Under the pieces are notes generated by a model. It was given only the letters and a program-made list of their open reading frames with translations. It had not been told where the DNA came from and did no database searches. A DNA stretch of 64,000 bases from Telopea speciosissima. Taxonomy: Eukaryota; Streptophyta; Magnoliopsida; Proteales; Proteaceae. This document shows positions 2,827-50,129 of the stretch, in pieces (position 1 is the first letter of the stretch; the number at the start of each line of letters is the position of its first letter). The stretch is from the NCBI RefSeq assembly GCF_018873765.1, contig NC_057926.1, positions 56,371,378-56,435,377 on the forward strand, read 5' to 3'. Position numbers and translations under genes: made by a program.

Positions 2827-3315
2827 TCAATTGAGATGAATTCCACATATTATCCCCTTTAGTATTTGCATCAAATGATAAGCAGTGATAAGCATCGATG
2901 TAGGAACAGTAAGTGCAAGTAGGGCCACCATCCCAAACACCAAGCTTGGCCTTGTCTTCATCAGTTGAGTTTGTAATAGCCCTATGGCTTCAAAGATATC
3001 AGAGTCATAATCATGGTAATACCTCTTCTCCCACTCCATCCAGTGCAATGGTGGCTCATCCTTCCTTTGATCAGCCTTTATTTTCATGTCTTGAATCCGC
3101 ATCCGTAGAACAATCATGTTCTCATCAACTCGCCGCCCATCAAAATCCCTATCATATCCATCTTTTCTTGCAACAAACACCTTCATAGGTGATTGTTGCT
3201 TGCATGGCTGCTCAAGGCTAGTTTTCCACTGCCGCAGCCGCCACCGCCGGAGTATCAATGAAGATGGGCGTTGGGGAAGTAGAAGAGGACGATGAAGAAG
3301 GGAAATGGATTTCAT
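2827..3315 (-). CDS. Conserved plant small membrane protein, copy 1 of 4
   Basis: This is a 162-residue single-exon frame. I do not recognise a named function. It is clearly a paralogue of the frames at 7560-8033, 11146-11613 and 26053-26520. The shared core is VDENMIVLR, a helix ending RIQDMK, then EPPLHWMEWEKRYY, YDSDIFEA.GLLQTQLM, TRPSLVFGM and a hydrophobic segment of about 25 residues near the C-terminus (VALLALTVPTSMLITAYHLM). The N-terminal 60 residues are variable and rich in Ser, Arg and Leu, as in an organelle transit peptide (inference). A TATA-like box lies about 60 bp upstream. The conserved core against diverged ends argues for selection on the protein. A single C-terminal membrane helix is likely; the plastid or mitochondrial location is a guess. 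Confidence 0.75.
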   Translation of the reverse strand: MKSISLLHRPLLLPQRPSSLILRRWRLRQWKTSLEQPCKQQSPMKVFVARKDGYDRDFDGRRVDENMIVLRMRIQDMKIKADQRKDEPPLHWMEWEKRYYHDYDSDIFEAIGLLQTQLMKTRPSLVFGMVALLALTVPTSMLITAYHLMQILKGIICGIHLN

Positions 3316-3375
3316 CTTTGGAAGAATTAATATGAATGGGGAAGGTCATCATGTGTGAGGTTACGTAAACATACC

Positions 3376-7559: not shown

Positions 7560-8033
7560 TCAATAACCTAGATGAAACCCACATAATATTCCCTTTAGTA
7601 TTTGCATCAAATGATAAGCAGTCATAAACAGCGATGTAGGAACACTAAACCCAACTAAGGCCATCATCCCAAACACCAAGCTTGGCCTTGTATTCATAAG
7701 TTGAGTTTGTAACAGTCCCATGGCTTCACAGATATCAGAATCATAATTAGGGTAATATCGCTTCTCCCAATCCATCCAATGCGATGGTGGTTCTTGCTTC
7801 CTTTGATCAGCCATGTTCATGTCTTGGATTCGCATCCGTAGAACAATCATGTTCTCATCAACTCGGCGCCCACTAATATAGTCCCTCTCCCTATCATCAT
7901 CATCATATCCATCTCTTCTTCTTGCAGCAAACACCTTCATAGGCGATGCTTGCTTAAATGGATGCTCAACGCTAATTTTCCGGCGTTGGCGGACAAGCAG
8001 ATGAGGAAGACAAATAAGGGAAATTGATTCCAT
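7560..8033 (-). CDS. Conserved plant small membrane protein, copy 2 of 4
   Basis: This is a 157-residue single-exon frame, most similar to copy 1 at 2827-3315. It shares VDENMIVLRMRIQDMN, EPPSHWMDWEKRYY, YDSDICEAMGLLQTQLMNTRPSLVFGM and a final hydrophobic segment (VGFSVPTSLFMTAYHLMQIL). The N-terminal region contains an acidic DDDDRERD stretch absent from copies 3 and 4. Copies 1 and 2 also share MKVFAAR- and SPMKVF-type sequence and their upstream flank, so this pair arose by the latest local duplication. Function is unknown to me. A C-terminal membrane helix is likely. Confidence 0.75.
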   Translation of the reverse strand: MESISLICLPHLLVRQRRKISVEHPFKQASPMKVFAARRRDGYDDDDRERDYISGRRVDENMIVLRMRIQDMNMADQRKQEPPSHWMDWEKRYYPNYDSDICEAMGLLQTQLMNTRPSLVFGMMALVGFSVPTSLFMTAYHLMQILKGILCGFHLGY

Positions 8034-8565
8034 CGTTGGAAGAGAAAGACTGAAAGAGGAAGAAGGCTGTGTGTGAGGAGTTACCTACTCTTCTTACCTA
8101 TTTATTGATAGACGTGAAGTGATTGATACAAAAAGGATCTAAAACTTAGGAATTTGATGGAGAAGGGGGCGAAACCGAGTGAGAAAAAGACACCATTGGT
8201 GACTAATTGATTATCTTTAATTATCTTTACTGTTTCTTTGAAATGGAATTTGCGGCTTAATTACGCATTAAAATCCTCTGCAATTTCTTTGTCTTGAGAG
8301 CTCGATTAATTTAGTTATTTTTGTTTTTCTTTTCTTGAGTTTGATACCACTGAATGTCGCATTTTCTATGTCGACACTGGAAAGGATTTTTTTTTCTTAA
8401 TTACATGTATGAAGTGCCAATCAATGTCAAGAAATACACAAATTGACATGACACCACTTGGTTTAATTACCGGCGTGAAGTGCCTTCCTAGGGAAAGATT
8501 CTATATCCCATCTTTGCAACTCGTTAATTCATGAAACCAATTAGACTTTAGATTTATGTGATCTT
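8034..8565. other. Upstream flank of copy 2
   Basis: The first 180 bp resembles the flank of copy 1. A similar block (GTCAAGAAATACACAAATTGACATGACACCA, in two overlapping pieces) resumes near 8427 after about 200 bp of unrelated sequence. This suggests an insertion in the copy 2 flank after duplication. A TATA-like AATAAATA is seen on the minus strand at about 8098. Confidence 0.5.
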
Positions 8566-10040: not shown

Positions 10041-10344
10041 TTAACATATGCCAGAAAAAAAATGTTTAAACTTGGGATGTATTTTAAGCTTCCAAAAGAA
10101 TTTTCATCAAGTGGAAAGATAAGAATTATGACCAGGGGGTGGTAAATATAGAGAACTAGCATCTAATAATTTTCTACTAATTCTACCATTCTTGGCCAAA
10201 GTGCACACCACCCGCTATTATCATAAACAAATAAATTAAGGCAATTTTTTGAATAAAAGGAGAAATATCTAGAGGAATTGAAACATCGAGTAAAGCTGAA
10301 TTCCACCAACTCAACCCAAATGCACAATTTTAAGTTGTGTTTGT

Positions 10345-10432
10345 TATGCATTCTAGGTTGATTTTCCATTTTTGGACGATAAAAACAACTACTTTTATCA
10401 TTTGAGAATGCAAAATCGACTTAGAATGCATA
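10345..10432. repeat. Small foldback element
   Basis: TATGCATTCTAGGTTGATTTT on the left is mirrored by AAAATCGACTTAGAATGCATA on the right with few mismatches, around a short centre containing GATAAAAACAACTACTTTTATC. The arms are about 30 bp. Flanking GTTTGT and CCAAAC suggest the inverted repeat extends slightly further with lower identity. Confidence 0.65.
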
Positions 10433-11145
10433 CCAAACAGTATTGCCTTGCAATATGGGCAGGCTATGGTTGCCATGTGGCAAAATATTTATTAGTTCAA
10501 TTTTTAGCCTCAGTTAAGGTCCATCAATCCCATTCATACGTAAAATTTCAGTTTAAAAAGGGCTAGGTCTTACATGTGGCAAAAATCATTGTTAAAGCTT
10601 GGTATTAAAATATAAATTGAATGAAAAGAAGCACAACATTTCAAGGCTTCAAAATACACAAGAATATTTTAGAGGAAAGCTCTCTGAACTTGGCCGCATG
10701 ATGTGTCCAAACACATGGGTGGTGGGCGAAATGACCACTCTGGCTCCCTGAATGATCAAAATGACCACAACGCCCCGCCTTATGTGTGTAGGGCAGTCAG
10801 TGCCCCGTGTGCTCCCGGACAAAGAACAATGCCCCAATATTTTAATACAAGGTGGAGTATATGATTGAATTGTTCAGTGAAATTTAACATGTGATCAATT
10901 TAAATTCTCCACAGAAACCCCTCCATGTGGTTTAAATTACAAACAACCTCTGTCATCTGTCTTAGTTGATGAACAAGAATTTTGTGATACTTTTTGCCTT
11001 TAATCTATAAGCTAGAGAGGATGAGAAAAGTAAACAATTTGTTGTGATATTTCAAAATTCTGATTAATATACATACAGAGTCTCACCTATATACCCAATT
11101 GGTATAAAAACAAGAACAATAATAATAATATTAATTATCTACAAG
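10433..11145. other. Intergenic DNA with a repeat-like block
   Basis: Sequence at about 10670-10840 (with GGCAAAATGA-type and ACACATGGGTGGTGGG-type motifs) resembles a block near 33340-33490 and is probably a dispersed repeat. The rest is the 3' flank of the minus-strand gene at 11146. Confidence 0.4.
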
Positions 11146-11613
11146 CTAGAGGTGAATCTCAGCTAAGATCCAATTGGCCATCTCCATCAAATGCAAGGCC
11201 ACCATGAACGTCGACGTTGGAACGCTAATCGCAACAAGAGCTACCATCCCCAAAGCCACACTTGGCCTCGTTTCCATAAGTTGTGTCTGTAGCAAACCCA
11301 CTGCCTCACATACGTCGGAGTCGTAATCTGTATAATACTTCTTCTCCCACTCCATCCAATTCTCAGGCGGCTCTTGATTTCTCTCCACCATCTTCATCTC
11401 CTGAATACGCTTCCTCAACACTATCATGTTTTCGTCCACCAGCTTTCCTCTCCCACTCCCATCTCCCTTCGCCGCAGCTAACGTCGTCGGATATCGATTG
11501 CAGCGGTGCCGGAATCCTATTTTCCGTCGATTGGATTTGCTTGAAGAGGGTTGTGGAGGATTGGGAAGAAACAGAGAGGACCCATTATTAATGGAGGACA
11601 TGCTTTGTACCAT
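11146..11613 (-). CDS. Conserved plant small membrane protein, copy 3 of 4
   Basis: The family core is intact: KLVDENMIVLRKRIQEMKM, EPPENWMEWEKKYY, YDSDVCEAVGLLQTQLMETR and a hydrophobic tail (VALVAISVPTSTFMVALHLM). The frame stays open upstream to 11688, but I place the start at 11613 (MVQSMSSINNGSS, 155 residues). A Met at 11601 gives MSSINNGSS, and copies 1, 2 and 4 are 155-162 residues long. The further upstream codons overlap a TTTAAATA-type box at about 11667 and look like leader. This copy is closer to copy 4 than to copies 1 and 2 (shared EMKMVERNQEPP-like segment). The N-terminal 60 residues are rich in Ser, Arg and Pro, as in a transit peptide (inference). Function unknown. Confidence 0.75.
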   Translation of the reverse strand: MVQSMSSINNGSSLFLPNPPQPSSSKSNRRKIGFRHRCNRYPTTLAAAKGDGSGRGKLVDENMIVLRKRIQEMKMVERNQEPPENWMEWEKKYYTDYDSDVCEAVGLLQTQLMETRPSVALGMVALVAISVPTSTFMVALHLMEMANWILAEIHL

Positions 11614-12919
11614 GGCTAGCTTTCTTCTTCTTAAGTTTGAAAGGAGGGAGAGTGTCACTTGGGTATTTAAAAGCCGATTTGGTCCCACGTGGCTAAACCG
11701 TGTTTTAGGAACAGAAGCTATCCCTTATCCATGCGCGTTTTTTGTTGAGATAATTCCGGAAGTTGACAGTTGGCAAATTTTGACAGTGACATGTGGTTTA
11801 CTCTGTACTTAGCCGAGAAAAGATCTTTCCTCATTCGTCGTCGCTTTCGTTGCTGTTTTATTTTCTTTCGTAGCCCTTAAGTTTCAGTACGGTGTCAAAG
11901 CTCAGCTCGAACCGATCTGATCAGACCATACTGTTTGGTCCAATCCAGACAAAATGGAATAGAACGAACCCTTATTGACTGAATACATTCATTCTTGTGT
12001 CTGATAGTAAATCAATTACAAAACCGATACAAAATTGGAATGAAATTAAAACCGATCAAAGCCAAAATTTCTCGATCGATTTAGTTTTGGGTTGCTAACA
12101 ATAAAACCGAAACCAATTTAACCCGAACAAACCGAACCAAACCAATCGATTGATACCTTTTTGTCTTCAAGCAATAAAGCGTGCCCCAGTGTCTACGTCG
12201 GTATCTATTCGCTTAATAAAATGGATTTGATATATAGATAACTCTGCATCAAAAGGTCAAAAAAGGGACAAATTAAGAAGGTTCCAATCACACACAGCTC
12301 CATGTGGAAACTGGTAAATGAAGGAATTAAGGACGGTGAAGGCGGTAAGGAACGTCTTTCGTCACTTCATGGCACAGTTGCACGCGTAATGACCACGAAA
12401 CTTAAGAGCAACTCCAAACGGCTTTTCTCATTTTCTACACAAAAAAAAAAAAAAAAAAAAAAAATTCCCAAACGGCCATAACGGTGTGGTCAAAGTAATG
12501 GTGGAATTGCTGGCGCATTGGTGACGAAAGTTGAGAATAAATCCAAACAGATACTCTCCAGCGCACCGGTGAGTTTAGCGCACTTCGGACGAAAGGAGTT
12601 GTTCGATTATGGCATGCGCCGCAAGCGCTGTACTCACTGACGCTTTGGAGAGGATTTTTTTCGCATGTTTTACTCTAATACTTAAAATTCTAGATTTGGA
12701 TAGGTGTTGAGCTTAATAATGTAATTTAATTTGAATTGAAATTAGTCTAAATAGTTGAAACATTAGGTGATGGAATTGAGAAGAAGTAAAGATTTTCATA
12801 GATCTTCAAATTTTGGAATTTTTTATTTAAAAGTCTAGTAAATATTGTTATTAGTTGTAAATTTCATTGGTTCTCTACTATTTTATTATATTTATTAAAA
12901 AAAGAAATGATAAAATAAA
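11614..12919. other. Intergenic DNA with a GGTT-rich repeat and AT-rich sequence
   Basis: At about 11890-12165 there is a repeat rich in AACCGA and GGTTTGG words, bounded by GGTGTCAAAG and TTGATACC, again hAT-MITE-like but with no clear duplication. A poly-A run lies at 12440-12464. The last 9 bases, 12911-12919 (TAAAATAAA), are the target duplication of the next element. Confidence 0.5.
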
Positions 12920-14710
12920 GAAAAAATTACTTGGACACCCCCTAGACTATGGCCATTTTGCTTACTATCCCCAACTTTTCAAACAGTTACTTGACACCCC
13001 TTGAAAGTTGACGATGTTAGTTTGTTGTTAGTGGTTGAATGGAAAAGTTCATTTTCCCCTTATCACATATTCAATAGAAAAACAGTGAAATTGACAGATT
13101 TACCACTTCTTCCTCTTCTTCTTCTCCTGCAACCAAAAAAAAACCAGCAGCCATGGCTGTACGTGAAGATACTACGAGAGATTGAGACCTGAACTCTGCG
13201 GTTCCCTGATTTTTTATTCAATCTGAACCCAGAATAAATTGCACCAAATCCTGCGGTCCCTTCCCACTTGGCTTCCTGAACAACTGAGTGGTCAGCCGGA
13301 CTTGTAGAGAACTCAGAATAAACAACTCCCCCCATTTGAAGCAAGAAATCTGTTAAAATAGTCAAATAGTTAAAGATGGAGCGAGGCAGTGGGGGTATAC
13401 ATGATGTCTGAATAGACTACAATGGTGTATTCGTCGTTCGCCGGTGACGTGGATTCGTCAATCCGTGGTCAAACTAGAGCTTTAGAAAGAAGAGAAGAGA
13501 AGAGAGTAGGAAACAAAGGGGACTGATTTACAATTCTAGTGGATTTGGAGATTTTGATTTCGGTGTCTCATTAGATTTCTGTTTTGAATTGGGGGAGGGG
13601 AGGCCGAGGTCGAGGGGCACAGGTGCAAGAGGCAGAGGTCTGAGGGTTCACGGTGCAGAGCAGTAGGGGGTGTGAGTGGGCTTTCCGACTAGGGTGCTCA
13701 TAGCAGGGAGGGAGCACAGTAGGTGGCGGGGAGGGGGTGCTGCAGGGAGGAGGGGAGGGAGACAGCGAGAACCCCCTAATCGTTGACTATGGATCACACT
13801 TTTAAAGAGTAAAGAAATCCATTTTAATCCATCTATGACATCTTATTCCCTACCACCGACTCTATAAGACTGTAACCATATAAAACCCCAAGCATTCATT
13901 AGATGTCGAAGCTACGTACAGTAGAACCAGATGGTGTACTTCACGAAAGATCGATATCAACAAGTCAACATTCTCCGATCCACAGTAGATGAACGATTCA
14001 AAAATTGCAGCAAGGAAGAAAAATAAATTTACCTACTAAAATACTTGAAAATAGTCGAAGTACAAGGAATCGAATGGTATAAATCTCAAACTAAAAAAAG
14101 AAAATCCGTTAGTCTCTGAGTAGTTTAGATGGAATAGTAGAAAATAGATTCAGAGACGTACGAGATCTTCAAATCATTTATTGGTAGAACGATCTAAGCA
14201 TGAATGCGAGGAAAGAGACAAGGAAAGCAGCGGCGACTGATGCGGATACGGCACCGAGTCCGGCACCAGAAGTAGGACTTGGAGCTGGAGCATCAACAGC
14301 GATAGCATCTCCAATGAAGGAGAAGACGGCGAGGACAACCGCCATAAGAGCCACGAACGAAGCTTTTCTCTTTGATTCCGATTCGACCTTTTGGGCTTAA
14401 TCTTCGAAGATGCCCTAATAGTTTTTGAAACAGCAGCTATGGTTGCTGGTTTTTTTTTTTGATTGCAGGAGGAAGAAGGAGAAGCAGAATAAGAAGAAGA
14501 AAGAGAAGGGGGGCACATATATCACTTCACTACACCTTAAGGGTAGTTTAGGCTTTACAAAATATTTAACCCATGGTAACGGTGACTGACTAACGGACAG
14601 GGCTACTTGAAAGAAATGGCAAACTGTAGGGGGTGTTCAAGTAATTGTTTTAAACGTTGGGGAGACTAAGTAATTAGGCCATAGTATAGGGGGTGTCAAG
14701 TAATTTTCTC
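12920..14710. mobile_element. Mutator-like element (Pack-MULE) carrying an arabinogalactan-peptide gene
   Basis: The element is 1791 bp and is flanked by a perfect 9-bp duplication, TAAAATAAA, at 12911-12919 and 14711-14719. The left end reads GAAAAAATTACTTGG and then ACACCCCCTAGACTATGGCC. The complement of the right end reads GAGAAAATTACTTGACA and then CCCCCTATACTATGGCC. The inverted repeats stay similar for about 100 bp and weaker similarity reaches about 13160 and 14440 (both have CCTGCAA.C followed by a poly-A and CCAGCA.CCAT). Nine-base duplications and long inverted repeats are hallmarks of Mutator-like elements. No transposase was seen, so it would be non-autonomous. It contains the small gene at 14178-14345. 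Confidence 0.88.
14178..14345 (-). CDS. Arabinogalactan peptide (AG-peptide), inside the Mutator-like element
   Basis: Too short for usual ORF cut-offs: 55 residues from the ATG at 14345. AG-peptides are small, heavily O-glycosylated cell-surface proteins. Visible parts, in order: a hydrophobic signal segment (MAVVLAVFSFIGDAIA), the family core VDAPAPSPTSGAG, whose prolines would be hydroxylated and glycosylated, and a hydrophobic C-terminal segment (SASVAAAFLVSFLAF) of the kind replaced by a GPI anchor. Known AG-peptides are about 58-75 residues. The N-terminus seems short: codons upstream (ESESKRKASFVAL) continue the frame but meet a stop 20 codons above the Met and have no ATG. The start may therefore have been lost on capture, or lie in a separate exon. 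The tail MLRSFYQ after the hydrophobic stretch is unusual for a GPI signal. The gene may be a captured, partly damaged copy. Confidence 0.7.
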   Translation of the reverse strand: MAVVLAVFSFIGDAIAVDAPAPSPTSGAGLGAVSASVAAAFLVSFLAFMLRSFYQ

Positions 14711-14719
14711 TAAAATAAA

Positions 14720-15133
14720 TAAAGGGAATATGCTTTCAAAGGCTAAGGTGTACACTGTTTCTACTTATATCCTATTTTTTATTATTTTTTCTCTCTCATC
14801 CAATAAATGAATAAACAATGTTTAGGTGAGAGGGTGGAGAGTACCCTGTTTGCTCAGAGAACTCTTCCAAAAATAAATATCTAAATGTATTCATGGTTGA
14901 TTTAAAAGTGTGGTTTGAGAATCGGGCATAGTCAGAATCTAAGTCAATCAATTTCGTTGATTCTTTTAATCATGCTTTAATCCCATAAATTATTAGTACA
15001 CCCCCATCCCATTTAACAATTAAAAAAAAAAAACGAAAAAAGGTATGGTAGCTTGCATTGTTAGAAAATTAGGTCTACTTGGGGGAGTCACCCGAGCCAA
15101 GTAAAAAAAAATTGAAACATAATCAAGAGTTTT

Positions 15134-15167
<34 letters not shown>

Positions 15168-15776
15168 AACCACCAACATGTGGGTCTCACTGCACTTATT
15201 CCTCTCTCTCCCACTAAATTTTATCTCACCTTCATTTTACTTTTCCAAACATGTTGGTCAACTCCCCCCCACCCCCCACCCATCCCCCCACATATGTTCG
15301 CACCACTATAACAATCCTACCCCACAAGTCCCCTCTACGAATGAGGCCTATGAGAATTCCATGAATAGTATTCAAATTCCTACAAAATTTGTTGGACTTT
15401 GAACACGTTTAGGATGGGAATATGTGGGATGCCTTGTCAATAGACAACCCAAAAAGAAAATACTAGTTCAAAAGTTGTCTAATCAGATTCCCACCCCAAC
15501 ATAAACAAACTTTCCTAATAGTGGTAAGGGAAGAGTTTCCCACTAGATAATTTTCACACCCCACAACTTTCCCTCTAAACAAATGAGACTTTCTAGTTTG
15601 ATGATAGAGTTTTTGTATGTATATTTCTATATCTATAAGTTGCTCATCTTTTCAGGTTTCGTTAATATCCCCCATGAAGCTTTAGCTAAGCGTTGTTATA
15701 TGAGAAGACCATTCATCCTTCGCCTCCAAAGAGTGAAGTTCTTCTTTTCATTGAACTTCTTAATTTTGTATTTAAC
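14720..15776. other. Intergenic DNA with a GA microsatellite
   Basis: A (GA)n run occupies about 15137-15164. The reading frame at 15020-15214 on the minus strand is an artefact of this run. Nothing else recognised. Confidence 0.55.
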
Positions 15777-17115
15777 GCTTGAACATGTCATCATGATAGC
15801 AAACACCAAAAATGAAATAATTTAGAATCTCTGATACCAAATTGTAGGAATGAAATTTTATACATGATGCAAAAAATAAAAAGAAAGAGTAATCAAACAA
15901 CCACAACACAAAGATATACGTGGTTCAACAAAGTGTCTATGTCCACAGAGAGATGCGAGCGACTTCACTAGCAATGAAAAAAAGAATTAGAAGTTTTCTT
16001 CTTCTTGTCTCTTTATGTTTATAAACAATTTCCTAAAAACACGCATTGCTAACAATTTAAAGGTAATACAATGGAATACAAATTTTCATAATTACCCCAT
16101 GTAAAACATATAATACAAGACATCAACCCTCAATAAACAAATACCTCTATGGGTTATAATAGGTCTCTAAGTTTCTTTAGTCAGCATGACCAGAGTCCTG
16201 TACTTAACGTTCGAGCCTTCATGATGTCATCATGATAGCAAACATCAGAAACAAAATAACCTAGAATCTCTGATACCAATTGATAAAAATGAAAACATAT
16301 ACATGACGTAGAAAATAAATCAAAAGATCAACCAAACAACCAAAACATAAAGATATACATGGTCCGACAAGGTGTCAACATCCACGAAGAGATGAGAGCA
16401 GCCTCACTAGCAATGAAAAAAAGGGTTACAATCTCTCTTTCTCATGCCTCTCTGTGTTTATAAAGAATTCCCCATAAGCCTAATAACCCCGCATCACTAC
16501 CAATTTAAAAGGATAAAAATTTTCATAAATACTCTATGTGTAGAAAAAAAAAATACACATTAACTCTTACTTTTGAGGGGGGTGATAGGGCCCTTAATTC
16601 CTTTACTCAGCATGATCACGTTATTGTGTTGCTTACCTAATCAATAACCTCTCAATGTCCTACTTGACACTTGAACCCTCTTGTGTCATCATAAAAGCAA
16701 GCATTAGAAACAAAATAGCCTAGAATCTTTGATACCAATTCTTAGAAACAAAAAACTTATACATAACTCATAAAATAGACCAAAAGAGCAATCAAACAAC
16801 CACAACATAAATATATATGTGGTTCAATAAAATGTCTGCATTGATAGAGAGATGAGAACAATTTCACTACCAATGAAATAAAGGATACAAGCTGTCATCC
16901 TCATGTCTCTCTGTGTTTACAAAGAATTCCCCATAACTCTAATAACCTTGCATCACTAACAATTTAAAGGAAAAACAAAGGGATACAAATTTTCAGAACT
17001 ACCTCATGTAAAATACAGAAAACAAGACATCAACCTTCAATAAATTGATACCTTTGTGGATTATGATGGGCCCTAAGTTCTTTTAGTCAGCATGATCAGG
17101 TTCTTGTATTACTTA
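15777..17115 (-). mobile_element. Fossil array of three LTR units with primer-binding sites
   Basis: Three similar units of about 440-460 bp follow one another. On the minus strand each has an LTR-like body ending near CCTACA or equivalent, then TTGGTATCAGAG (the initiator-tRNA primer-binding site common in plant LTR elements), then a short leader. The LTR bodies begin (plus-strand coordinates) near 15843, 16281 and 16740. No gag or pol sequence was recognised. Family undetermined, with copia plausible. The element is broken and the units have diverged, which suggests moderate age. Confidence 0.55.
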
Positions 17116-17880
17116 CCTAGTCGAATGGAAGGACGTTGCCCCTTGATTCTCATTATGCCTCTTGTCTTCCCTTGTGGTGGTGTGAGGTGGCTTTGAATGC
17201 GATACATATGCCACTATGTCATGTCCATTGCTTCGTGGTTCTGGCTTGTCTGTGTTGTATGTTCTCTAAGATGCGGGACATGTTGTGTGAGATAGTATTA
17301 AAAATAATGAACCTTAAAGTGGATAGGAGGTATGGAGTCCAATTACTCAAGGACAATGCATCTATGCAAATGGAAAAATTGTAAGATCTTCCCAAAGGGA
17401 AGTCATTGGATCTGGCCCACTAAACCACAAGACACATTTATGGGCCCATCAAACACTATAGCTTGCTTAAAAGTTGTTTTATTCAAACTACACCTCAATT
17501 GAAAATATGTCATCAAGCACTCATAAAAGACTAAACATATAATTTAAAAAGAAAAGGCACAACAAAAGTTGTGATATGTTTGGTTCATCGTTTTAGTAAC
17601 CATGGGTAGATCTGGATCCGATACCAATCTAGATTGGTCCGTATCGGTTATATTTTTACTCTATCCATACAGATCCAACGATACAGGATCATCCAAGAAT
17701 CGGCCAATTCGATACTGATTCCTTAAATTGAGGTATCAAATTCAAGGTTTAAACAAATATAGACCCAAGGCCATAAATGAGAGCTTATGGCCTATTGTCA
17801 CTTGGTCCTTTGTGTCGAGATGAGTCAATTTATTGACTGACCAAAGAGAAGTTTGAAGTCTCCTTCAATTTCCAATGAGG
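17116..17880. other. Intergenic DNA
   Basis: Contains a short ATCGGTATC/GATACCGAT-type degenerate repeat near 17600-17730. The open frame at 17136-17384 shows no recognisable motif. No gene assigned. Confidence 0.45.
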
Positions 17881-17885
17881 TCACC

Positions 17886-20649
17886 TGTTATACCCGCACC
17901 CTAGGATGCAATTAAATATTATTTCTTCTCGTGACGTGTAGATACCACTGCCATGTATGCTGGTGACATGTTCTCCATGATGGTCAAACCCAGCTACAAA
18001 ATCGTTGACCACAGTACGGGCTTGCCTGTGGAGGAAATATTCCTCAATCGGCAGTGGGGAAAGTTCGTCGATGGCAACTTTGTCGACTATCCTTCAAGTA
18101 CCAGCCCGGGAAGCGAGGAGTTTAGGAAAGAGCACCTGGACCGTCGCCTCAGTTGGACACTTCGTTCAGTGATGAACTTGGCATTGCTGTGGCGAAGCTA
18201 TTCGGGGTCATGGGTGATAAACCGTGACAAGAGAAATGTATGTTCTAACCTTTAATTTAATTACTTACCCCTCCCTTCGGTGTCCTCGAAGTGCGGGTTG
18301 GGGTTTGAACCACCCAAGCTAGTATGGTTGAATAGGAAATATTTCCAATTGTGGGTCCCATTTATTTAAGGGAGCGTGTGATGGGCTTATAATCCCATGG
18401 TGGGTGGATCCATCCTTAAGTGGATTCTTTTCTATTTGAAACCAATGGGTCGGCCCATTTAGCCCATTAGGCCCATTTGACTTAATGAACTAAAAATGGA
18501 TTTCTATTCTAGTGTTACCCAACCAAACTGGTCCTAAGGTCTTTTTTTGCCTATTTAGAGCTAAAGACATTTACTTCTCATTACTATTCTCACCTAACCT
18601 TAAACGTGGAGGAGAGAAAGGAGAAGAGGTGTGGAGGAGCTTGTTAGGGAGGCTTGAGGATCTTACTTCTTGTAGCTTCAACGTGGGTGCTACTTCCTTG
18701 AGGTAGGTAAGCCTTTAAGGCCCTCCCTTTCTTTTTTATTTTGGATTTTTTGGATTGGGAGATGATGGAGAATCGGTCTAGGGTTTGTCTTGAGACCCAA
18801 AAATCGATGGGAACTCATGGCCTTGATTTTGTGGAGCTATTTGACTCCATTGGCTAACCCCAAAGCTCCCAATTCCATCCCCATCGATAGACATAGGGTT
18901 TCTATCCTATTATGCCCTAAATGAAGTTCTCCTTGCTTTCCTTTATTGAATCCATGGATTGCATAGGCTTAATGGGGTCTTAGGACCCTAATGTGCCAAG
19001 GAGAAAGCCCTCTTGGTGATTCCTTTGCTCCAATCTACTTGAAAATGGAAGCTTTGATGAAGAATCCTTTAATTTTGGGGTTTGGAGACACGCGGTTTTA
19101 CTTGCGGTTTCAAGACCTATGAGAAACCGCCCCTGTAACCACCCTGAGACCATCCTCTTAAGAAGCCCTCTGTTAAAGTCGATTTTACCTACGGTTTCAT
19201 ATACCCTGAGAAACCACACGTAAAACCGCACCTAGCAGAACCCTTCCTAAGCCCCTGTTAAGGTTGGATTTACAGGTGGTTTTAAGTTTGGGCATGAAAT
19301 CACCCATAAAACCACCCTATCTTTAAAGTCTACAGCTTAGGTAATTTGTGGGGGACCTTTTTGGGGATCCTCCCCTTTGACATAATTAACCCTAGTCTCA
19401 CTCTTTCACTAGGTTAAATCTCTCATTTTTGCAACGTGTTACTTAATCGCGGCGACATCTTCTAGCTTCGGGATATAACACCTAGGGTGAGTGGGTTTGG
19501 TTTGTTTGCATAATTTTACCATGCTATTAGTATAATTAATTTGGCATGATTTGTGCATTTGCATATTTTATTAAATGATGAACATGATTATGATTGTGGT
19601 TGTTATTACATTTTAATGGGTCACGGTGCCAGTGAGTGTCGGTGCCGGTGCCGGTGCCGAAACCCTGAATATTATATATTTATGAAGTAATTTTGTTGAA
19701 TGTCATATTGAACTGTATGCGCCGTGCCGTGCTGGTAACCGGGCACTAAACCAGATGAAAAGTTGATGCGCCCGGATTGCCTCTCGGGACGATAGGACTT
19801 GCATGTAGTATATCTGCGGCTAGGATTTTTGCACCCTTATGCTACGACCCTTACCAACAAGGGTTTAGGTGTTGGGTAATCAGTACACCGGATTCTGTGA
19901 AGGGGAGAGAGGCCACTCATGGTAGTATTGGTTGTCGGGGTCTGCCACTGAGTGGTCTTGGAGGCTTCGATCGGCGTAAGCCCCCTGGAGACAATTGAGA
20001 ATTTATTGTGGTGATAAGATAAGTGACCCACAGTGTCTTCCGAGTTGTCACAGTTGCATATACCTGACTTAGTTGTGTGTTAGGTGAAAAATGGAATTAA
20101 CATGTGCATGCATCATTGGACTATGTGAATTGCGTGTTTGTGTATCCCCATCCCCTCACTGGCTCAGTGGAGCTAACCCCCTCGTGCGCACACTTTTTAG
20201 AATATGGTGCAGGTACGAAAGAGCCGGAAGCTGTGTTTGAGGAACATGGCGACGGGTGTCCTTGTGACGATTGCGCCTAAGGCGTGAGGATACTTGGGAC
20301 TTGTTCCCCTTTTGTTATTTTAGGGCTTAAAGCCCATGTATAAATATTTACTGTTATACCCTTGTTGATAGTTATTAGATGGTCTTGGAAAATGTATTAA
20401 TTATAGTATTAATCATTTACCTTTGAACATCTTGTAACTATTTGATTTTATACGCTTCCGCAAAACTATTGATCTTTTGGAATGTAATATTCCCTTTCCG
20501 CACTCTGATATTATATGGCTTTAATATTGGTTATGACTGTGCGTTGGGACACTGTGTCAGTGATCCTGGTAGCTTAATGGGATGACACGCGTCGTCCTAG
20601 TCACTCCTTATATTATATTATATCCCTTGTCTGGGATAGGGGTGTGACA
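17886..20649. mobile_element. Solo LTR fossil, probably Ty3/gypsy
   Basis: The element begins TGTTATACCC and ends GGGGTGTGACA, with the 5-bp direct duplication TCACC immediately outside at 17881-17885 and 20650-20654. Its length of 2764 bp fits the long LTRs of Del/Tekay-type gypsy elements. No internal region remains, as expected after LTR-LTR recombination. The intact duplication and ends suggest a fairly recent insertion. A coding-looking stretch lies at 17953-18255. Confidence 0.8.
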
Positions 20650-21511: not shown

Positions 21512-22015
21512 GACATAACTAGGGTTGCAACATGGTCGGGTTGGGTCGGGCTTTTTAAAACCCTAGCCCAACCCTGAATCCCCTTAGCTAGGCCCAGACC
21601 CGCCCTGACCCTGACTCAGGGCCTAAAAACCTTGACCCTAACCCTGACCCTGACGGGCCAAGCTAAGCCCAAGCCCCCCCTGATTGACTCTGATTGGGCC
21701 GGGCCAGGCGGGCTGGCCCTGATTGACCCTGACCCTGACCTCATCTTTCCTTCTAATAAAATCACTTTACTAAATATTAAAAAAAAAACAAAAAAAAAAC
21801 AGAGCATAGTGATCATTTTAAAGGGAATTCAATTCAGAGGGAAGGGAGAAAGAAGGGCGCTTAGCCCAAAATTACAGAAATCACAAGCACTACAAGCCTA
21901 TAACAGAACCTTATTGAATCACAAAACAGGAGCTTCTAGTTAAATCTTGGTGAACAACTGGAAAAAAAAAAGAAGAAAGAACTATCATTGAGCCTTTAAA
22001 ATCACCCTACTCTAA

Positions 22016-22499: not shown

Positions 22500-23438
22500 A
22501 GAGACATAAAGAGAATGAGAAATGCATAGATCTAATAAGGGTTAGATTCCATCTCTTTCTTCATCATCACCAGAGAATTTTAAACGACTCTTTACCTTGT
22601 TTTAGAAACAGAACCTTCGATCGTTCAGCAAGTGAGAACCTTCGTTTCTCCAGCGAGTTAGAGAGAGAGGTGATAAAGAGAATCACTCCATGAGAGAGAC
22701 GAGTTTGTCTGTTTTAAGTTACAAGCAAAGGGGTAGGGGCTTGGCATTCTCTGAGAAAAAAACTTACAGACAGAGAGGAAGAAATGAGAGATTCGCCACT
22801 GAAATCGCTGGCTGAACGAAGACAGAGAAGAAGAAGAGGAACAAAGTGTGTCCACACTCCACCGCTACAGTCACCTTGGAAATAGATACTATATTTCAAC
22901 CGCTGCAACTAATCGGAGACGGAGAAGAGGAAGGGAGCAGGATATTGAGGTTTTGAAGATGACTCGCCGGCTGCAGTCAACCTAAAACGAGAACGGCAAC
23001 AAAGCAGAAGGAGGCAGCAACTAGGGTTCCAAGCATTTGGGTTTTGTTCGCAAGAGGAGATAAGAAACACTTGACTGGGAGTGTGGGAAAGTGGGAATCG
23101 GGTAGGGCGAGGGTTTGTGAGTTGTGAGTTTTATTTCATTTAAAAAAAAAAATAATATTAAAAACTTAGAAGCGAGCGTATTATATCTTTTTTTTCCTGG
23201 TAGGAAGCGTATTATACGTTCGTTATGAAAAAATCGAAAAAGAAATCAAACCAAACAACATCCCAATTCATAAATATAAATCACCCTATAAAATTGAAAT
23301 AGAAATCATACCAAATCATCGCTTAGGCCATATTTGGTATTATTTTTATTTCAATTTTGCATTGATTTCATGAAATAGTCAACAAATGGATTTTTGGTCA
23401 AGAATTTGAAATTGTATTTCATTGAAAATAGGTGTAAT
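22500..23438 (-). other. Leader-like GC-richer DNA within element A
   Basis: Read on the minus strand, 23120-22540 has CT-rich, exon-like sequence with AG|GT and donor-like sites (for example ACAAG|GTAAAG near 22600), resembling the 5' UTR and first intron of a plant gene. It may be the 5' part of the same captured gene as the exon at 22016-22123. No convincing long coding frame was found. The Harbinger-like TTAGGCCATATTTGGTAT near 23325 marks a small repeat. Confidence 0.4.
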
Positions 23439-24672
23439 TAGGGCTGCAACAAAGTCGGGTTGGGCCGGGCTTTTTAAAACCCTAGTCCAACCCTGAGTCC
23501 CCTTAGCTAGGCCCAGACCCGCCCTGACCCTGACTCAGCCTTGTCAAACTCGGTCAAGATGAGTCACATTTTTTTATTATGCTATAAATATCATTATATT
23601 TATATCATTATATGATTTGGACAATTTATGACCTTCCTCGTCGTTGGTCTTTTGCCGAGTTTATCATGACTTAGGTAAAATATCGAGTCTTATTTGACTC
23701 GGACAATTGATGACCCAGTCTCGTCATTTTTACAGTCTCGTCATTTTTACCCTGACCTAGTCTACAGAGTACCAAGTCTACAAACTCTGCACTTCTACAG
23801 TCTACCCGACTCTTGACCAAGTTTTCCAAAATTTGACTCGACTCGGGTGACTCGCCGCCCCAAGTCAAAACCCGGTTTTCCAACTATGCTTTAAATAACT
23901 ACTATGTTTTTTTAAGGTTTATGCCTATTTGATGAAGTGCCGTCGTGTAGGTTTTATGTGTGTGAGATTCTTGGGATCTTCAATTATTTAATTGATTAAA
24001 AAAAAATTTCTTGAAACAAAAAGGGGAAATGTAAACAAAATACAAAAGTTGGAATCAAATATAGTTAGTAAATCAAACGCTTAATTGAAAAAGATGGTTT
24101 TACCCATATAAAACGTTAGATATGGATCTATTATTTATACGTGTATTTTATGTTGCTTTGCATATGTACTTAGAGGTCAAATTTTTTTCTTTTATGTCCC
24201 CCTCTGGCCCCCAATACCTAAATTTGGCATTTTTTAGTTTTATTTGTTTAATGAATTTGTACATTAATCCTTCGCAAGTTGGTTATAATAAATAAATAAA
24301 TATATATATATAATGTACTTAGAGGTCAAATTTATGAACCCTATTTTTTATTTTAAGAAAATCAAAATAATAGAAAAAGATTCAGGACAGTAGTTGGTGA
24401 CTTGGTGTCATATTATCATATTTTGTAATATAATATCCCATATAATATAATATCATATTATCATTAATTCATTATATATAATCAGGGTCAAAATCAGGGC
24501 CAAAATCAGGGTCGGGCCGACCCTAGGTCTCAACCCTGACCCGACCCGACCTGACCCTAACTCAAGGTGAGGAATTTTTTACCCTAACCCGCCCTCAGGG
24601 CCAGAAATCTTAGCCCAGGCCCTGTTCGGGCTCAGGGCGAGCCAGGGCCAAACTTGCACCCCTAGACATAAC

Positions 24673-26052: not shown

Positions 26053-26520
26053 TCAGTTGATGAGATGAATCCCAGACAAGATTCCATTAGCTACATTCAT
26101 CAACTGTAACATGATCATCACTGTGGATGTGGGAACACTTAATGCAACGAGTGCAAGCATTCCAAGAGCCAAACTGGGTCTTGTGTTCATCAATTGAGAT
26201 TGCAAAACCCCAACTGCTCTGCAAATACTGGCATCATAGGTTGTATAGTACTTCTTCTCCCACTCCATCCAATCCTCCGGTGGTTCGTAATTCCTCTCCA
26301 CCATCTTCGTCTCATGAATCCTCCTTCTCAGCACTATCATACTCTCATCCACAAGCCGTCCGCCATAACCCCAATCGCACTCGCCTCTTCTCACGGCGGA
26401 AATGGGTACCTTCTGTTGCCGGAAACCCAATCTCCGATTCCGTGAACCTGCAAACGAAGAAGATGGTTGTGGAGGAAGAAGAACAGGGGATGATGAACAC
26501 AGAGAAGAAGTCGCTTCCAT
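26053..26520 (-). CDS. Conserved plant small membrane protein, copy 4 of 4
   Basis: This is a 155-residue single-exon frame starting MEATSSLCSSS. It has the family core (RLVDESMIVLRRRIHETKM, EPPEDWMEWEKKYY, YDASICRAVGVLQSQLMNTR) and a C-terminal hydrophobic segment (MLALVALSVPTSTVMIMLQLM). The core differs from the others by VDES for VDEN and by Ala in YDAS. The N-terminus is Ser-rich, with a basic stretch (GSRNRRLGFRQQKVPISAVRRG) resembling a plastid transit peptide (inference). A TATA box lies about 125 bp upstream. It sits 14.4 kb from copy 3, separated by large transposon insertions, so the four may once have been a tighter array. Function unknown. Confidence 0.78.
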   Translation of the reverse strand: MEATSSLCSSSPVLLPPQPSSSFAGSRNRRLGFRQQKVPISAVRRGECDWGYGGRLVDESMIVLRRRIHETKMVERNYEPPEDWMEWEKKYYTTYDASICRAVGVLQSQLMNTRPSLALGMLALVALSVPTSTVMIMLQLMNVANGILSGIHLIN

Positions 26521-26643
26521 AGGGCTGCTTATAGGCTTTAAATGAGGAAAGATCAGATCTTTGAAAACCGTAAAGATCTACAGATATGTTTGTGTTGGCT
26601 GTTGTGTGTGATTTGATTTGGGATTTGGTGATTTCATTCTCTC

Positions 26644-34001: not shown

Positions 34002-34448
34002 TCACTGGCAATCAATCTGAAACTTGTCGATGGAGCAAGTAGAGGAAACCCAGGAAATGCGGGCATTGGAAGAGTCTGTCACAACAATTCATCATCTTTT
34101 ATTTGTGGTTTTTCGGAGGGTATTGGATGGAACTTTGTACTGGTGGTTGAAGCTCATCTTGCAGTTAGAAAGGCTATGACATTGGCAATTTCTCTCAATT
34201 TTTGGAATATAATTATTGAGAGTGACAATCTTCTTCTGATCCGACTATTGAAAGGTCCCTCGATTGTTGTTCTTTGGAGGATTTCTTCTATTCTATCTGA
34301 TTGTTTTTGTCTTGTTCCTCGCTTTGAGGATGTCCAGTTCTATCATGCGTTCAAGGAAGCAAATTTTGTTGCTGACTCTCTTGCAACGTTGGCTGCGGAT
34401 TCCCCCCCCCCCCCGGTCTCCTTCTGTCTCTCCATTCTTGTATGCTGA
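34002..34448 (+). mobile_element. LINE-type RNase H domain fragment
   Basis: The frame is open from 34002 to the stop at 34446-34448, without an ATG until 34143. It reads as a plant LINE (RVT_3-type) RNase H: LVDGASRGNPGNAGIG, VVEAHLAVRKAMTLAI, NIIIESDNLLLIRLL and ANFVADSLATLA. The expected acidic residues (D in DGAS, E in VEAHLA, D in ESDN, D in VADS) are all present. A poly-C run follows the domain. There is no reverse transcriptase upstream, so the copy is 5'-truncated. A host RNase H-like gene of this family is an alternative. Confidence 0.7.
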
Positions 34449-35995: not shown

Positions 35996-36180
35996 ATGGC
36001 AATTAGGGTTGCAACAGGGTTGGATTGGGTCGGGTTTTTTAAAATCCCAACCCAACCTTAAGTCCTCTTAGCTGGGCCTAGGCCCAGCCCGGCCTGGCCC
36101 GACTTTAACTCAAGACAAGAAAAATTCAACCCTAACCCGCCCTCAGGGCTGGGCCAGTCTGACCTTGACTGACCCTAAGT

Positions 36181-38050
36181 ATGGTGCCACAAGTGATGGT
36201 GGAAGTGGCTTTAGTGGTGGAAATGTTGTTGGGTAGGGGTGCAAGTTTGGCCCTGTTGGCCCGAACCCGCCCTGGCCCGTCCTGAGCCCGAATATGGCCT
36301 GGGCTAAAGATTTCTGGCCCTGAGGGAGGGTTAGGGCCAAAGTGCTTGGCCCTGAGTCAGGGTCGAGTCGGGTCCGGGGTGAGGCCTCGGGTCAACCCGA
36401 CCCTAATTTTAGCCCTGATTTTGACCCTGATTTTGACCCTGATTATATATAATGAAGTCAGAATCATGATATTCCGGTGTCCCTCCCCCTCTCCCCTCCC
36501 CCCCCACCCAAATTTTACAATTTAATCAAATCAGAGTTTTGGTCACACTATCAATTATATACTCTGTAGGATTTCACAATTTCAGAGTTCTAACCATAAT
36601 AAAGTTCCTGATATAGGATGGAAAGAAAATCTCACTCTAATGCATTTCCACAAACATGACATAGGTGCTAGTGTGCTACATTTGTAAATGGAAAGCAAGG
36701 GGAATAATGGAGTGCATCTAAAACCTGTTGCATCCAAGTTCAATATCTTCATTTTAAAGGAAATCAAATCTGCAACTGTTACTCATGCAGGAACAATCCT
36801 ATATATTATCCTAATTCTGCAAAGATGTATTTATCCTTATAAATATTTAATGTTTAATCTGGTATAAGAGCTTGATCAAAACCTCATTTTGGATTCTCTA
36901 TCTTCTCCAAGTTCTTAAAAAACTGATTCACATTTTTTTTTCTTTCTTTTTTTCCTGTTTCCTAAACTCTTGTCCTCACCATTAATCTGAACCCAAATAT
37001 CTCACTGGCTTATTCATACCCCAAGGTAAAGGCCTACAATTTTCACCTCTCTCTAAAACACCCTAATTAGAAAACTCTCGATCTTAATGAAGAAATCCCA
37101 TATGTCCCAACAGCATCCCTTGTTTGCCATTCTTTTTCATCCTTCCAACTTTCGAGTTGAATACAAATCTGAAAACCCTCCACCTAGCATCTCCAGTTTC
37201 TCTAATAAGACCTGTCTCAAAATCTTTCAATTTTCAAATTGAATACAAATCTGAAAAACCTCCACCAAGCATCTCCAAATTCAAAATAAAAAGCAAGATA
37301 GATTTTCATGGAAAATATTAGAATAACCACTTTACTGTGAAGAGCATAGGAAGAAGAGGGAAAAATCCACTGTTACAAGAATCCATGGTATTGCTATGTA
37401 GTTGTTGTTGCTGCTGCTCTCACTTTCTCCAACTTCTGAAAGGTTGGTGAAGAAGTGAGATCAATCAATTAAAGGCAAAGAAAAGATAGAGAAATGAAAA
37501 GGACAGAACGTTTAATTTAAAGGTAAGAGTATTCTCAGAGCTGCAGAAAGATTTTCATACTTACACCCAATCAGAGTCAATCAGGGCGGGCTTGGGCTGG
37601 GCTTGGTTCGTCAGGGTCAAGGTTTTTAGGCCCTGAGTCAGGGTCAGGGCGGATCTGGGCCGAGCTAAGGGGATTCAGGGTTGGGCTAAGGTTTTAAAAA
37701 GCCCGGTCCAACCTGATCCTGTTGCAGCCCTATTGTTGGGTTTGGAGGCAACGCCAATGGTGGAAGCTATGATGTTTTAAGCAGTGACGGTGGTAGTGAT
37801 AATTTTGTTTTTTAATTTTTTTTATATGAGATTATTTTTTTAGTGGTGCTTCCTCTATGAGTGGAGATGTGGCACTTATGATGGTTAGTATGGTTATGAA
37901 TTTTGGTTGTGATCAGTATGGTCTCAATCAAAGCAACAAATTCAGGTGCTGCCAACCAGGACGATCCCGAATAAAATAACATGGATAACGAAGAGCCCTA
38001 TCGCTATACTAACAAGAAGAAGAAAAACACGAAGAAGAAGATAAAGTTGA
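36181..38050 (+). pseudogene. Glycine-rich (possibly RNA-binding) protein fragment captured in element B, split by element C
   Basis: The two pieces of element B on either side of element C read, before the insertion, SDGGSGFSGGNVVG, and after it, FGGNANGGSYDVLSSDGG. Later sequence at about 37910-38030 contains YGLNQSNKF and, in another frame, NQDDP and MDNEEPYRYTNKKKK. Gly/Ser/Asn/Tyr-rich tails followed by an acidic DDP segment occur in plant glycine-rich RNA-binding proteins, but no RRM is present, so the assignment is tentative. Several frame changes show it is non-functional. Confidence 0.4.
36234..37732 (-). mobile_element. hAT-like element C, nested in B in reverse orientation
   Basis: The element starts TAGGGGTGCAAGTTTGGCCC and ends GTTGCAGCCCTA, the reverse arrangement of element B. 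The exact 8-bp duplication TTGTTGGG flanks it at 36226-36233 and 37733-37740. At 1499 bp it carries about 1.1 kb of AT-rich internal sequence at 36450-37560. That interior includes a direct repeat of about 39 bp (37157-37195 and 37239-37277, TTGAATACAAATCTGAAAA then CCTCCACC.AGCATCTCCA). No transposase or recognised gene was found. Confidence 0.88.
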
Positions 38051-38800: not shown

Positions 38801-38870
38801 AAACCCTAGCTTTCGTAGACAATTGGACTCTCCTCTGTACTATAAAATGCTTCTCTGGTAATTAGGGTTT
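38801..38870 (+). promoter_or_regulatory. RACK1 core promoter: two telo-boxes and a TATA box
   Basis: AAACCCTAGC lies at 38801-38810, TATAAAA at 38841-38847 and ATTAGGGTTT (the reverse telo-box) at 38861-38870, upstream of the ATG at 38975. Telo-boxes (AAACCCTA) are typical of plant ribosomal-protein and translation genes, which fits RACK1 as a component of the 40S ribosome. Coordinated growth-linked expression is an inference. Confidence 0.65.
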
Positions 38871-38974
38871 CTCTGCATCTTACTCTGTTCTACCCCTTTC
38901 TCCAAGCACAAGCAGCAGCAATAGTCGTAGGCTCGAAGCCAGTAAAGAGCGAACAAAGAGAGAAGAAACAAACC

Positions 38975-41900
38975 ATGGCGGAATCTCTGATGTTTAGGGG
39001 GTTGATGAAGGGTCACTCTGACATGGTGACAGCGATCGCTACTCCCATCGACAACTCGGACATGATCGTCTCTTCGTCTCGTGACAAATCAGTCCTTGTC
39101 TGGAACCTCACGAAGGACGAAAACCTCACGAAGGAGGAAAACACATACGGTGTCCCTCGTCGCCGTCTCACTGGCCACTCTCACTTCGTCCAAGACGTCG
39201 TTCTCTCTTCCGACGGTCAGTTCGCTCTATCTGGTTCCTGGGACGGTGAGCTCCGACTCTGGGACCTGAACACTGGTGTCACCACTCGCCGATTTGTCGG
39301 ACACACCAAGGATGTCCTCTCCGTTGCATTCTCCATCGACAACCGGCAGATCGTCTCTGCTTCCCGTGACCGATCGATCAAGCTTTGGAATACACTCGGC
39401 GAATGCAAGTATACCATTCAAGATGATAACAGCAGCCACACCAACTGGGTTAGCTGTGTGAGATTCAGCCCTAACACTTTTCAGCCTACCATCGTTTCTG
39501 GTTCTTGGGATCGCACCGTGAAGGTCTGGAATCTCACCAATTGTAAGCTCCGCTGCACATTGTCCGGTCATGGTGGGTACGTGAACACAGTTGCCGTTTC
39601 GCCTGATGGGTCTCTGTGTGCCAGTGGAGGGAAGGATTGTGTGACGCTGCTATGGGACTTGGCTGAGGGCAAGAGGCTTTATTCGCTCGATGCTGGGGCT
39701 ATTATTCATTCTCTATGCTTCAGCCCGAATAGGTATTGGCTTTGCGCTGCAACTCAGGAGAGTGTTAAGATTTGGGATCTGGAGAGCAAGAGCATCGTTC
39801 AGGACTTAAAACCAGAGCCAACCGCTAACAAGAATCAGGTATATTTGGTTTTAGAGTTGACAATTATTTGTTTGACCATTTACTCTGTTGGGATTACATA
39901 TTTGACTTTCTTTACTTTTAACTTTGGGTTCTTTTACTGGTAGGCCAATCAAAGGCATACTAATAGATAGTTTCAGCCATAGATTTAAATTATTTTTTTA
40001 ATGTCCGACAATCTGCACCTAGGAAACACATACTAATCTGCACCTAATTTACTCTAGTTTCTTTCTTGTGATTTTATTGTCACTTTGTCAGATGAAAGAA
40101 TCACTGAAATTAGATGGGGGGGAAATTCTAATTACTTCATAGCAGTGTAGTTGATTTATTGAACAAAGGTTAAAATGTCAATTCACAATCTCTTTTTATT
40201 AAGCCATGAAAGAATGGATTTCATGTATCTGTTTATGATTGAATAGGTCATGAATTCTAGATTAGAATACCCATCAGGAGATTTCCCATGATCATAAAAG
40301 CTAAATCAGTATATTTCCCATAATCATTCTTATGAAAAATAATTGTGTTTCTTATGAGATTTTTTTTCTTGATGTCCCCATTTTGGGTTGTACTTCTATT
40401 AATTCGCCAATACTCTATCTTTGATAATTAAGCTGTAATCATTTTTTTCTGACCCCTAGTATCTGTATCTAGTATCATGACACTTTCATTTGAACCATCT
40501 CAATTGGACTCCGCATTATACATACACTCCATTGTTTCTACTGAAGCATGATTTTCTGATTTAGTACTCTAACTCATCCTTCTTAACCTTTATCTCTGTT
40601 CTATATTCTTTTTATGTTGGTGGATTTATGTAGGCCCCGTTTGGTAACATTTCAAAGAAGTATTTCTAGTATTTTTTGTTCTTCGATTACAGAAAAACAC
40701 TGAAAAGGCATTTGTATGCCTGGGCATATTGAACTCAAAAAACACAGAAGAAAAAAATTTCCCTTTTTATTTCAGTAACAGATTGGAAGAAACATAAAAC
40801 TCAAAAAAAAAAAAAAAAAACCCTGACCATCTTCTCTCTTCCTAAACCTTAGAGCCTCTTTCTCAACTCAACCTCACAGTGCATGCCATTGGTGGTGCGC
40901 TGGGATGCATCACCATGGACTGGCTTCAAATACCATTGCTGGGACTGTTGCAATGCCAAATACATGGCTGCCACATAATCGGCAAAAGCTCGGGGTAGTT
41001 TGCATAGTTCACCAAGGCAGTATCCTTTGATACCGTAAAGAGAGCTAGTTGGATCAGCGAAAAAGCGTTTTCTCTTTCCCCTTCCTGACATATACGGTAG
41101 TGGTTGTGTCAGTGGATACAACTACAGCCACAATTTGAGGAGCTCGAGTTTTAACAGCATTCATGGAGGTCGCTTTGGGCTGGAGCAACAGTATATATAT
41201 GTTTTCTTGTTGCATGGACAACCTTGGTAGTGAAATTTTTTCCCTGTCGACCAGTGGCCTCAGGAGGTGGTTGCACTGAATTTAATCATTTTAAATGTTA
41301 CTGGCAGAAATGCCTAAAAGTTGTGCGCTGAAAGTTTTGATTGATTGAAGGTGATTAATGATGTTCAATTTAATGTTGTTCTAGATTGTTAGGAGACCAA
41401 CTAGAAGCCAGACAACCAGGATCTTACTTGAATGGTAGTTTGGCTAGGTAAAAAATAGGTAAAAGTGCCAAATTAGGATTAGGGTTTGAAAGGACCCAGG
41501 GTTTGATGGTAGTAGGTAGTTCCTCTATTAGGGAAGATTACAATAAGTTTTAATTGTTGGAAGTGTGCTGGAATGTAAGAGCAGCTGGTTAGGTTTAGGA
41601 TTTTTGTTTTTTGAAAGGATGAAAATTGGGCATTTCTAGGGTTTGAATTGGTGGAATGGGTCCAAGTTTGGATAGAGTGTTCCTAATGGGGAATGGAGCA
41701 CTCGGTCAGGTTTTGGTGGATTTTTGATTGGCAGGAGGGTCTTGGGAGGATTTAGGTGAAGGGAATATTGAAACAAAAGGGGGAATTGTTAGGGTTTGGC
41801 TGTGAGAATGTTAGAAGAATTGTGGGGATGGGGATTCTTTAAACTTACAATTGCAGAGGATACTTGGCAGCAGCAGCTTATTTGAATGCGAAAACTTGAA

Positions 41901-49565: not shown

Positions 49566-49573
49566 CTTAAAAC

Positions 49574-50129
49574 TAGGGCTGCAACAGGGTCGGGTTGGGC
49601 CGAGCTTTGTAGTACCCTAGCCCAACCCTAAGTCCCCTTAGCTAGGCCCAGGCCCGACCCTACCCTGACTCAGGGCCAGAAAAATCCAACCCTGACCCGT
49701 CCTCAGGGTCGGGCCGGGCCAACCCTGATTGGCCCTGGTCATGGGGAGGGGAAAAGAAATGCATGGGTAGGAATGGGCTGGGAAGAACATTATTAATTTT
49801 ATATAAAATAATAATATAATAAATTATATTATAACACTTATTATCTTCATATATAGTATATTATATAAAAAAATGTGGGTGAAATTTAAAGTTTATAATG
49901 TATAAATTATATCAACATATATTTTATAGTATAACTTAAATCAGGGTAGGGCCGGGCCGGGCCAAGCTTAGCTCGAGACCTCAACCCTAATCCGACCCGA
50001 CCCTAACTCAAGGCCAGAAATTTCCAGCCCTGACCCATCCTCAGGGCCAAATATCTCAGCCCAGACCCTGTTCGGGCTCAGGGCGGGCCAGGGCGGGTTC
50101 GGGCCGACAAGGCCAAACTTGCACCCCTA
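49574..50129 (+). mobile_element. hAT-like element D, the compact form of the family
   Basis: At 556 bp this is the shortest copy. It starts TAGGGCTGCAACAGGGTCGG and ends GGCCAAACTTGCACCCCTA. An exact 8-bp duplication, CTTAAAAC, lies at 49566-49573 and 50130-50137. Two GGGCC/CCCTGA-rich tips of about 190 bp enclose an AT-rich centre (49780-49935) with no payload, so it shows the basic form to which copies A, B and C have added sequence. Confidence 0.92.

Follow-up and report, generated by a model that had tools for sequence, protein, structure and literature searches.

The locus at positions 12920-14710 of the window, by which we mean the whole 64-kb stretch of DNA that was analysed, raises two linked questions: is the 1,791-bp Mutator-like element found there the carrier of an arabinogalactan (AG)-peptide gene, and, if so, is the copy that it carries a working gene? 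Pack-MULEs, which are non-autonomous Mutator-like elements with pieces of host genes, have been described in rice, maize, tomato, and Arabidopsis, and a transposon carrying a gene copy is an ordinary kind of event. On the evidence set out below, we consider it quite likely that the element is non-autonomous and of the Pack-MULE type, that its cargo, placed just inside one repeat, is a 5′-truncated AG-peptide gene, and that it has the history proposed here. As for the second question, the cargo is most likely a gene copy that lacks an established function, and a working new peptide is a possibility that we do not favour. The coordinates of the features are collected in Table 1.

Table 1. Features of the element and its borders, in window positions.
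Feature	Positions	Strand	Description	Basis
Target-site duplication, left copy	12911-12919	.	9 bp, TAAAATAAA	
Left terminal inverted repeat	12920-13159	+	Outer block ~12920-13009, unlike middle, inner block 13107-13159 ending CCATGGCTG	BLAST, MAFFT, shuffles
Open frame, possible second cargo piece	13162-13416	-	85 codons, exon-like by eye	No family found
AG-peptide-like frame	14178-14345	-	55 codons, TAA stop	Signal-like hydrophobic stretch with AIA at its end, then VDAPAPSPTSGAG core and hydrophobic tail
In-frame upstream stretch	14346-14396	-	17 codons without ATG, AQKVESESKRKASFVAL	Resembles lysine-containing signal-peptide N-terminus
Right terminal inverted repeat	14434-14710	- (reading inward)	Outer block ~14710-14622, inner block 14489-14434 ending CCATAGCTG	BLAST, MAFFT, shuffles
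TATA-like string ATATATG, putative promoter	14516-14522	-	In right repeat; a pyrimidine-rich stretch lies on its inward side	String match only
Target-site duplication, right copy	14711-14719	.	9 bp, TAAAATAAA	

The argument for a Mutator-like element begins at its edges. As the preliminary description had claimed, the inverted repeats are bracketed by two perfect copies of TAAAATAAA, which immediately adjoin both repeat ends; with the base composition of the region, nine bases would agree exactly at both outer edges by chance with a probability of ~2e-5. The 9 bp found here lie within the 8-11 bp usual for MULE target duplications (PMC4858842), and a second description (PMC10741241) gives 7-12 bp; the element fits both published descriptions. 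Its anatomy shows that the whole element inserted as one unit into AT-rich DNA, an event that produced the 9-bp target duplication. With the flanks (10500-12919 and 14711-18000) run by BLASTN against the rest of the window at E up to 1e-4, no match spanned the insertion point, and hence no empty insertion site was found in the window; flank matches elsewhere fell only within 11149-11443, where there are paralogous gene copies, and within a tandem repeat at 15.75-17.1 kb. The latter, about 1 kb to the right of the element, is a direct tandem duplication (15754-17122) of ~900 bp with 70-75% identity. Neither a further copy of the element nor a donor gene for its cargo was seen in the window; outside the element BLAST gave short matches only, the best being a pyrimidine-rich 27 bp at 55504-55530.

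The terminal repeats are longer and more complicated than they had first seemed. They had been put at about 100 bp, which holds for the outer block (~90 bp) and falls well short of the full length, ~240 bp on the left and 277 bp on the right when each repeat is counted through an inner block of ~55 bp. In the BLAST alignments, the outer blocks (12920-13000 against 14710-14630) share 84% identity over 82 columns (11 mismatches, 2 gap openings; E = 2e-18 within the window), and the inner blocks (13107-13159 against 14489-14434) share 84% over 56 columns (6 mismatches, 2 gap openings; E = 3e-10). The repeat middles, 93 versus 111 bases, have no similarity beyond chance, with 446 of 500 shuffles scoring at least as high as the real pair. 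Because the alignable blocks are only 84% alike and the middles are unlike, the element is either old or assembled from unlike ends. MULE terminal inverted repeats are usually 100-500 bp (PMC4858842), and the repeats here lie in that range by way of the inner block, with the unlike middle counted in, the outer block alone being shorter. Read inward, the outermost bases are GAAAAAATTACTTGGACACCCCCTAGACTATGGCC on the left and GAGAAAATTACTTGACACCCCCTATACTATGGCC on the right, and a TTACTTG-ACACCCC motif occurs twice in each outer block, with a third, weaker copy in the right one. Tandemly repeated MULE ends have been described in tomato and Arabidopsis, where the units have 100 bp or more in common (PMC3310237); the repetition seen here is therefore not the same thing. 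Six short forms of the terminal motif were printed in no paper text searched, a 22-base end pattern was absent from the viral contigs searched, and the DNA folding of the left outer repeat was unremarkable (z = -1.47; 18 of 200 shuffles fold as well).

Inside the repeats, none of the 29 stop-to-stop frames of at least 28 aa matched a transposase in Pfam, two of them (13416-13523 and 14188-14397) having been scanned minus a few residues. Since no interior frame resembles a transposase, the element is taken to be non-autonomous, and, none having been found inside, it would depend on transposase made elsewhere. The assignment to the Mutator-like elements, proposed from the outset, is thus well supported by the anatomy: 9-bp duplication, long terminal repeats, and no transposase found inside. 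Membership among the Pack-MULEs asks for more, since the definition in PMC4858842 includes a fragment of an identifiable, non-hypothetical host (parental) gene. The Pfam scan of the 29 frames is what a Pack-MULE would give with respect to transposase; with respect to cargo, an AG-peptide architecture is present, as judged from the cargo itself. The likeness to known Pack-MULEs extends to the long terminal inverted repeats, the 9-bp target duplication, the gene-like cargo, and the higher GC content of the cargo beside the right repeat than of its surroundings, in addition to the lack of a detected transposase; the difference is that the cargo here resembles a nearly complete small secreted-peptide gene. 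We infer that this gene was captured by the element, which is probably a Pack-MULE, of a kind already known, with a 5′-truncated AG-peptide gene copy. Such elements are reported to hold further captured pieces (PMC8903248), and the remaining interior frames, which match no Pfam family above cut-off, may be either further captured pieces or filler. A second cargo gene at 13162-13416 was considered and rejected, as Pfam, PDB, and bacterial/archaeal contigs gave nothing usable; its two PDB matches (E = 0.04 and 0.16), to transferrin-binding proteins, were taken as chance. Readings of a 114-codon frame as MALT1_Ig or Prenylcys_lyase and of 13365-13457 as TMEM240 were also rejected, the Pfam matches being below cut-off.

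The cargo beside the right repeat is the 55-codon minus-strand frame that had prompted interest in the locus, and its reported signal-like segment, core, and hydrophobic tail are all there; from 14345 to 14178 it translates as MAVVLAVFSFIGDAIAVDAPAPSPTSGAGLGAVSASVAAAFLVSFLAFMLRSFYQ. Kyte-Doolittle analysis places hydrophobic segments at both ends of the frame, the expected N-terminus being without a start codon. Compared with AG peptides of the AGP12/13/14/21 type, the frame shares a short precursor, a signal-like segment ending in AxA, a P/A/S/T content above 35%, an acidic residue followed by the APAPSPTS core, and a hydrophobic C-terminal tail. It differs in having GAG after the core, in place of the DA of peptides of this type, in the RSFYQ that follows the hydrophobic tail, and in an N-terminus that has lost its start codon. 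Published screens for AG peptides (PMC11941891 and PMC5372829) use 50-90 aa and at least 35% P/A/S/T, and the frame, with 55 aa and 43.6% P/A/S/T, falls inside both cut-offs; the AGP12/13/14/21-type peptides constitute clade I in PMC5372829. Translation would yield a precursor of 55 residues, with a signal-like segment cut down to 16 residues and a short core, APAPSPTS, that has three prolines; the tail of this precursor could direct GPI addition.

The front of this precursor is where the gene copy appears to be damaged. The preliminary description was right to doubt the N-terminal start, because the upstream extension, open until a stop with its first base at 14399, contains no ATG. Translation could begin only at an internal Met, inside the signal-peptide region, which leaves a signal-like segment without a basic residue; to call the gene "almost whole" was fair, with the proviso that no start codon precedes this Met in the frame. 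Since the upstream stretch reads like the front of a lysine-containing signal peptide, the original start of the gene was apparently lost, either because the piece was truncated when captured or through a change afterwards, and the copy would accordingly be one that was cut or has decayed at its 5′ end.

Could a gene so shortened still work? The alternative that survives best, unlikely as we think it is, supposes a new gene driven by the transposon, in which transcription would come from the right repeat, translation would begin at 14345, and selection would keep the frame open. MULE ends are known to carry promoters (PMC3310237), and the right repeat could supply a promoter and leader to the AG-peptide cargo, judging from the sequence. 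The frame starts 88 bp inside the inner end of that repeat and points away from it; a transcript of it, if there is one, would take its promoter and 5′ leader from the repeat. From the right end, the minus-strand ATGs lie at 14682, 14574, 14518, and then 14345. The TATA-like string begins at 14522 and overlaps the ATG at 14518, the start of another frame that is 114 codons long. A transcript beginning ~30 bp beyond the string would meet the ATG of the AG frame first, and one beginning farther out would meet 14518 first. That the first AUG after the string would be that of the AG frame speaks for a working gene, as does a detail of the inner ends: the left repeat has an ATG there (13153), and the matching triplet of the right repeat (14440-14438), which is out of frame relative to the AG frame, reads ATA, so that an out-of-frame start is absent. 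On the other side, a string match finds no TATA-like string in the left repeat, and the promoter reading is therefore unsupported by the partner repeat; moreover, the signal-like segment has no basic n-region.

The intact state of the frame might be offered as a further argument for a working gene. If the divergence between the repeats arose after insertion, it gives a decay rate of ~6.7% substitutions and 1.45 gap openings per 100 bases, and at that rate a neutral 55-codon frame stayed intact in ~5% of simulations; the figure rises to 22% at half the rate, 48% at a quarter, and 56% with substitutions but no gaps. However, the rate derives from 17 mismatches and 4 gap openings in 138 columns, part of this difference between the repeats may predate the insertion, and the locus was chosen because its frame is open. 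The argument for selection is weak, and nothing here demonstrates that the frame is a working peptide gene. We would call decidedly improbable the fuller scenario in which a mobile AG-peptide gene has gained its promoter and leader from a Mutator-like repeat; the right repeat having no ATG at its inner end, the truncated frame would be read first and give a new, shorter cell-surface peptide that transposition could duplicate. If expressed, the locus would show, in compact form, a transposon copying a secreted-peptide gene almost in full along with its own promoter, and thus a simple route to new cell-wall peptides. For annotation, the frame should be counted among ordinary AG-peptide genes only once transcripts support it.

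A copy without established function is still a copy of something, and the next alternative denies even that: the interior would be unrelated to host genes, and the AG-like frame would be open by chance, in filler DNA that is richer in GC. We regard this as very unlikely, despite several results in its favour. Openness alone means little, because the complementary strand and a second minus-strand frame are open across the same stretch. No database family matches the frame: it has no confirmed relative in the viral or bacterial/archaeal contig collections scanned, the Pfam model for AG peptides (PF06376, AGP) does not match it, and identification of the cargo through Pfam was rejected, as the frame gave only sub-cut-off matches to DUF6234, Vut_1, and DUF347. 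The missing Pfam match says little, since in a control with three Arabidopsis AG peptides PF06376 finds AGP16 (5e-19) and misses AGP14 and AGP23, and thus does not define the whole AG-peptide class. Local alignment to these sequences gave a score of 70 each for AtAGP16 and AtAGP14, above all 500 segment-wise shuffles, which argues against a chance frame; the score of 53 for AtAGP23, reached by 29 of 500 shuffles, is what a chance frame might also give. Against chance, too, is the fact that signal-like segment, AxA, APAPSPTS, and hydrophobic tail stand in one frame in the expected order and at the expected spacing. A filter for this architecture, devised once the frame was known, asks for a hydrophobic segment, a proline-dense core, and a hydrophobic tail close to the stop, in that order. 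It has a single match in the six frames of the window, the AG-like frame itself, and none in 100 first-order Markov sequences of equal length. By this test, with its post hoc filter, the frame is real and not a chance frame. What places it, putatively, among the AG peptides is its motif and architecture rather than a match to a database family. Finally, that an AG-peptide gene was present first, with the flanking repeats added around it by separate insertions or rearrangement, is extremely improbable, given that one duplicated 9-mer brackets the outermost bases of matching inverted ends, the signature of a single 1,791-bp insertion.

In the literature searched, which leaves most subscription journals outside, no paper deals with Pack-MULEs and arabinogalactan jointly, and this is no proof of a first sight; among the matches listed, none combined an arabinogalactan peptide with "Mutator-like" or "captured". 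The strings APAPSPTSGAG, APAPSPTSGA, APAPSPTSDA, and DAPAPSPTS are nowhere printed as text in that literature. The absence of the peptide from papers means little, as known AG-peptide forms are likewise not printed.

The surroundings of the element merit a short account of their own. The window has the look of plant DNA: it is 38.5% G+C and contains RACK1-like WD40, F-box, and potassium-transporter genes. The first of these is likened to PDB 3dm0, which holds the Arabidopsis protein, and the gene (38846-39943) has an 18-bp tandem repeat in its coding frame at 39104-39142. The potassium-transporter (K_trans) genes lie in an inverted pair, 50986-54406 (+) and 57284-60555 (-), with matching pieces 77-85% alike. 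Four related minus-strand frames of 172-192 aa (2827-3345, 7560-8084, 11146-11724, and 26053-26577) have in common the core MIVLRxRI ... WMxWEKxYY and, close to the C-terminus, a hydrophobic segment; their DNA is 67-74% alike in the matching parts, and none of the four has a Pfam family. A dispersed repeat of ~90-180 bp with 74-93% identity occurs in at least five places in the window (21516-21698, 23435-23538, 36001-36176, 37566-37732, and 49571-49736). Three other stretches (1-130, 10338-10439, and 23290-23358) match their own reverse complement at 76-86%, in the manner of foldback or MITE elements, and a frame at 34002-34448 with an RVT_3 reverse-transcriptase-like domain (E = 4e-16) is probably the remnant of a retroelement.
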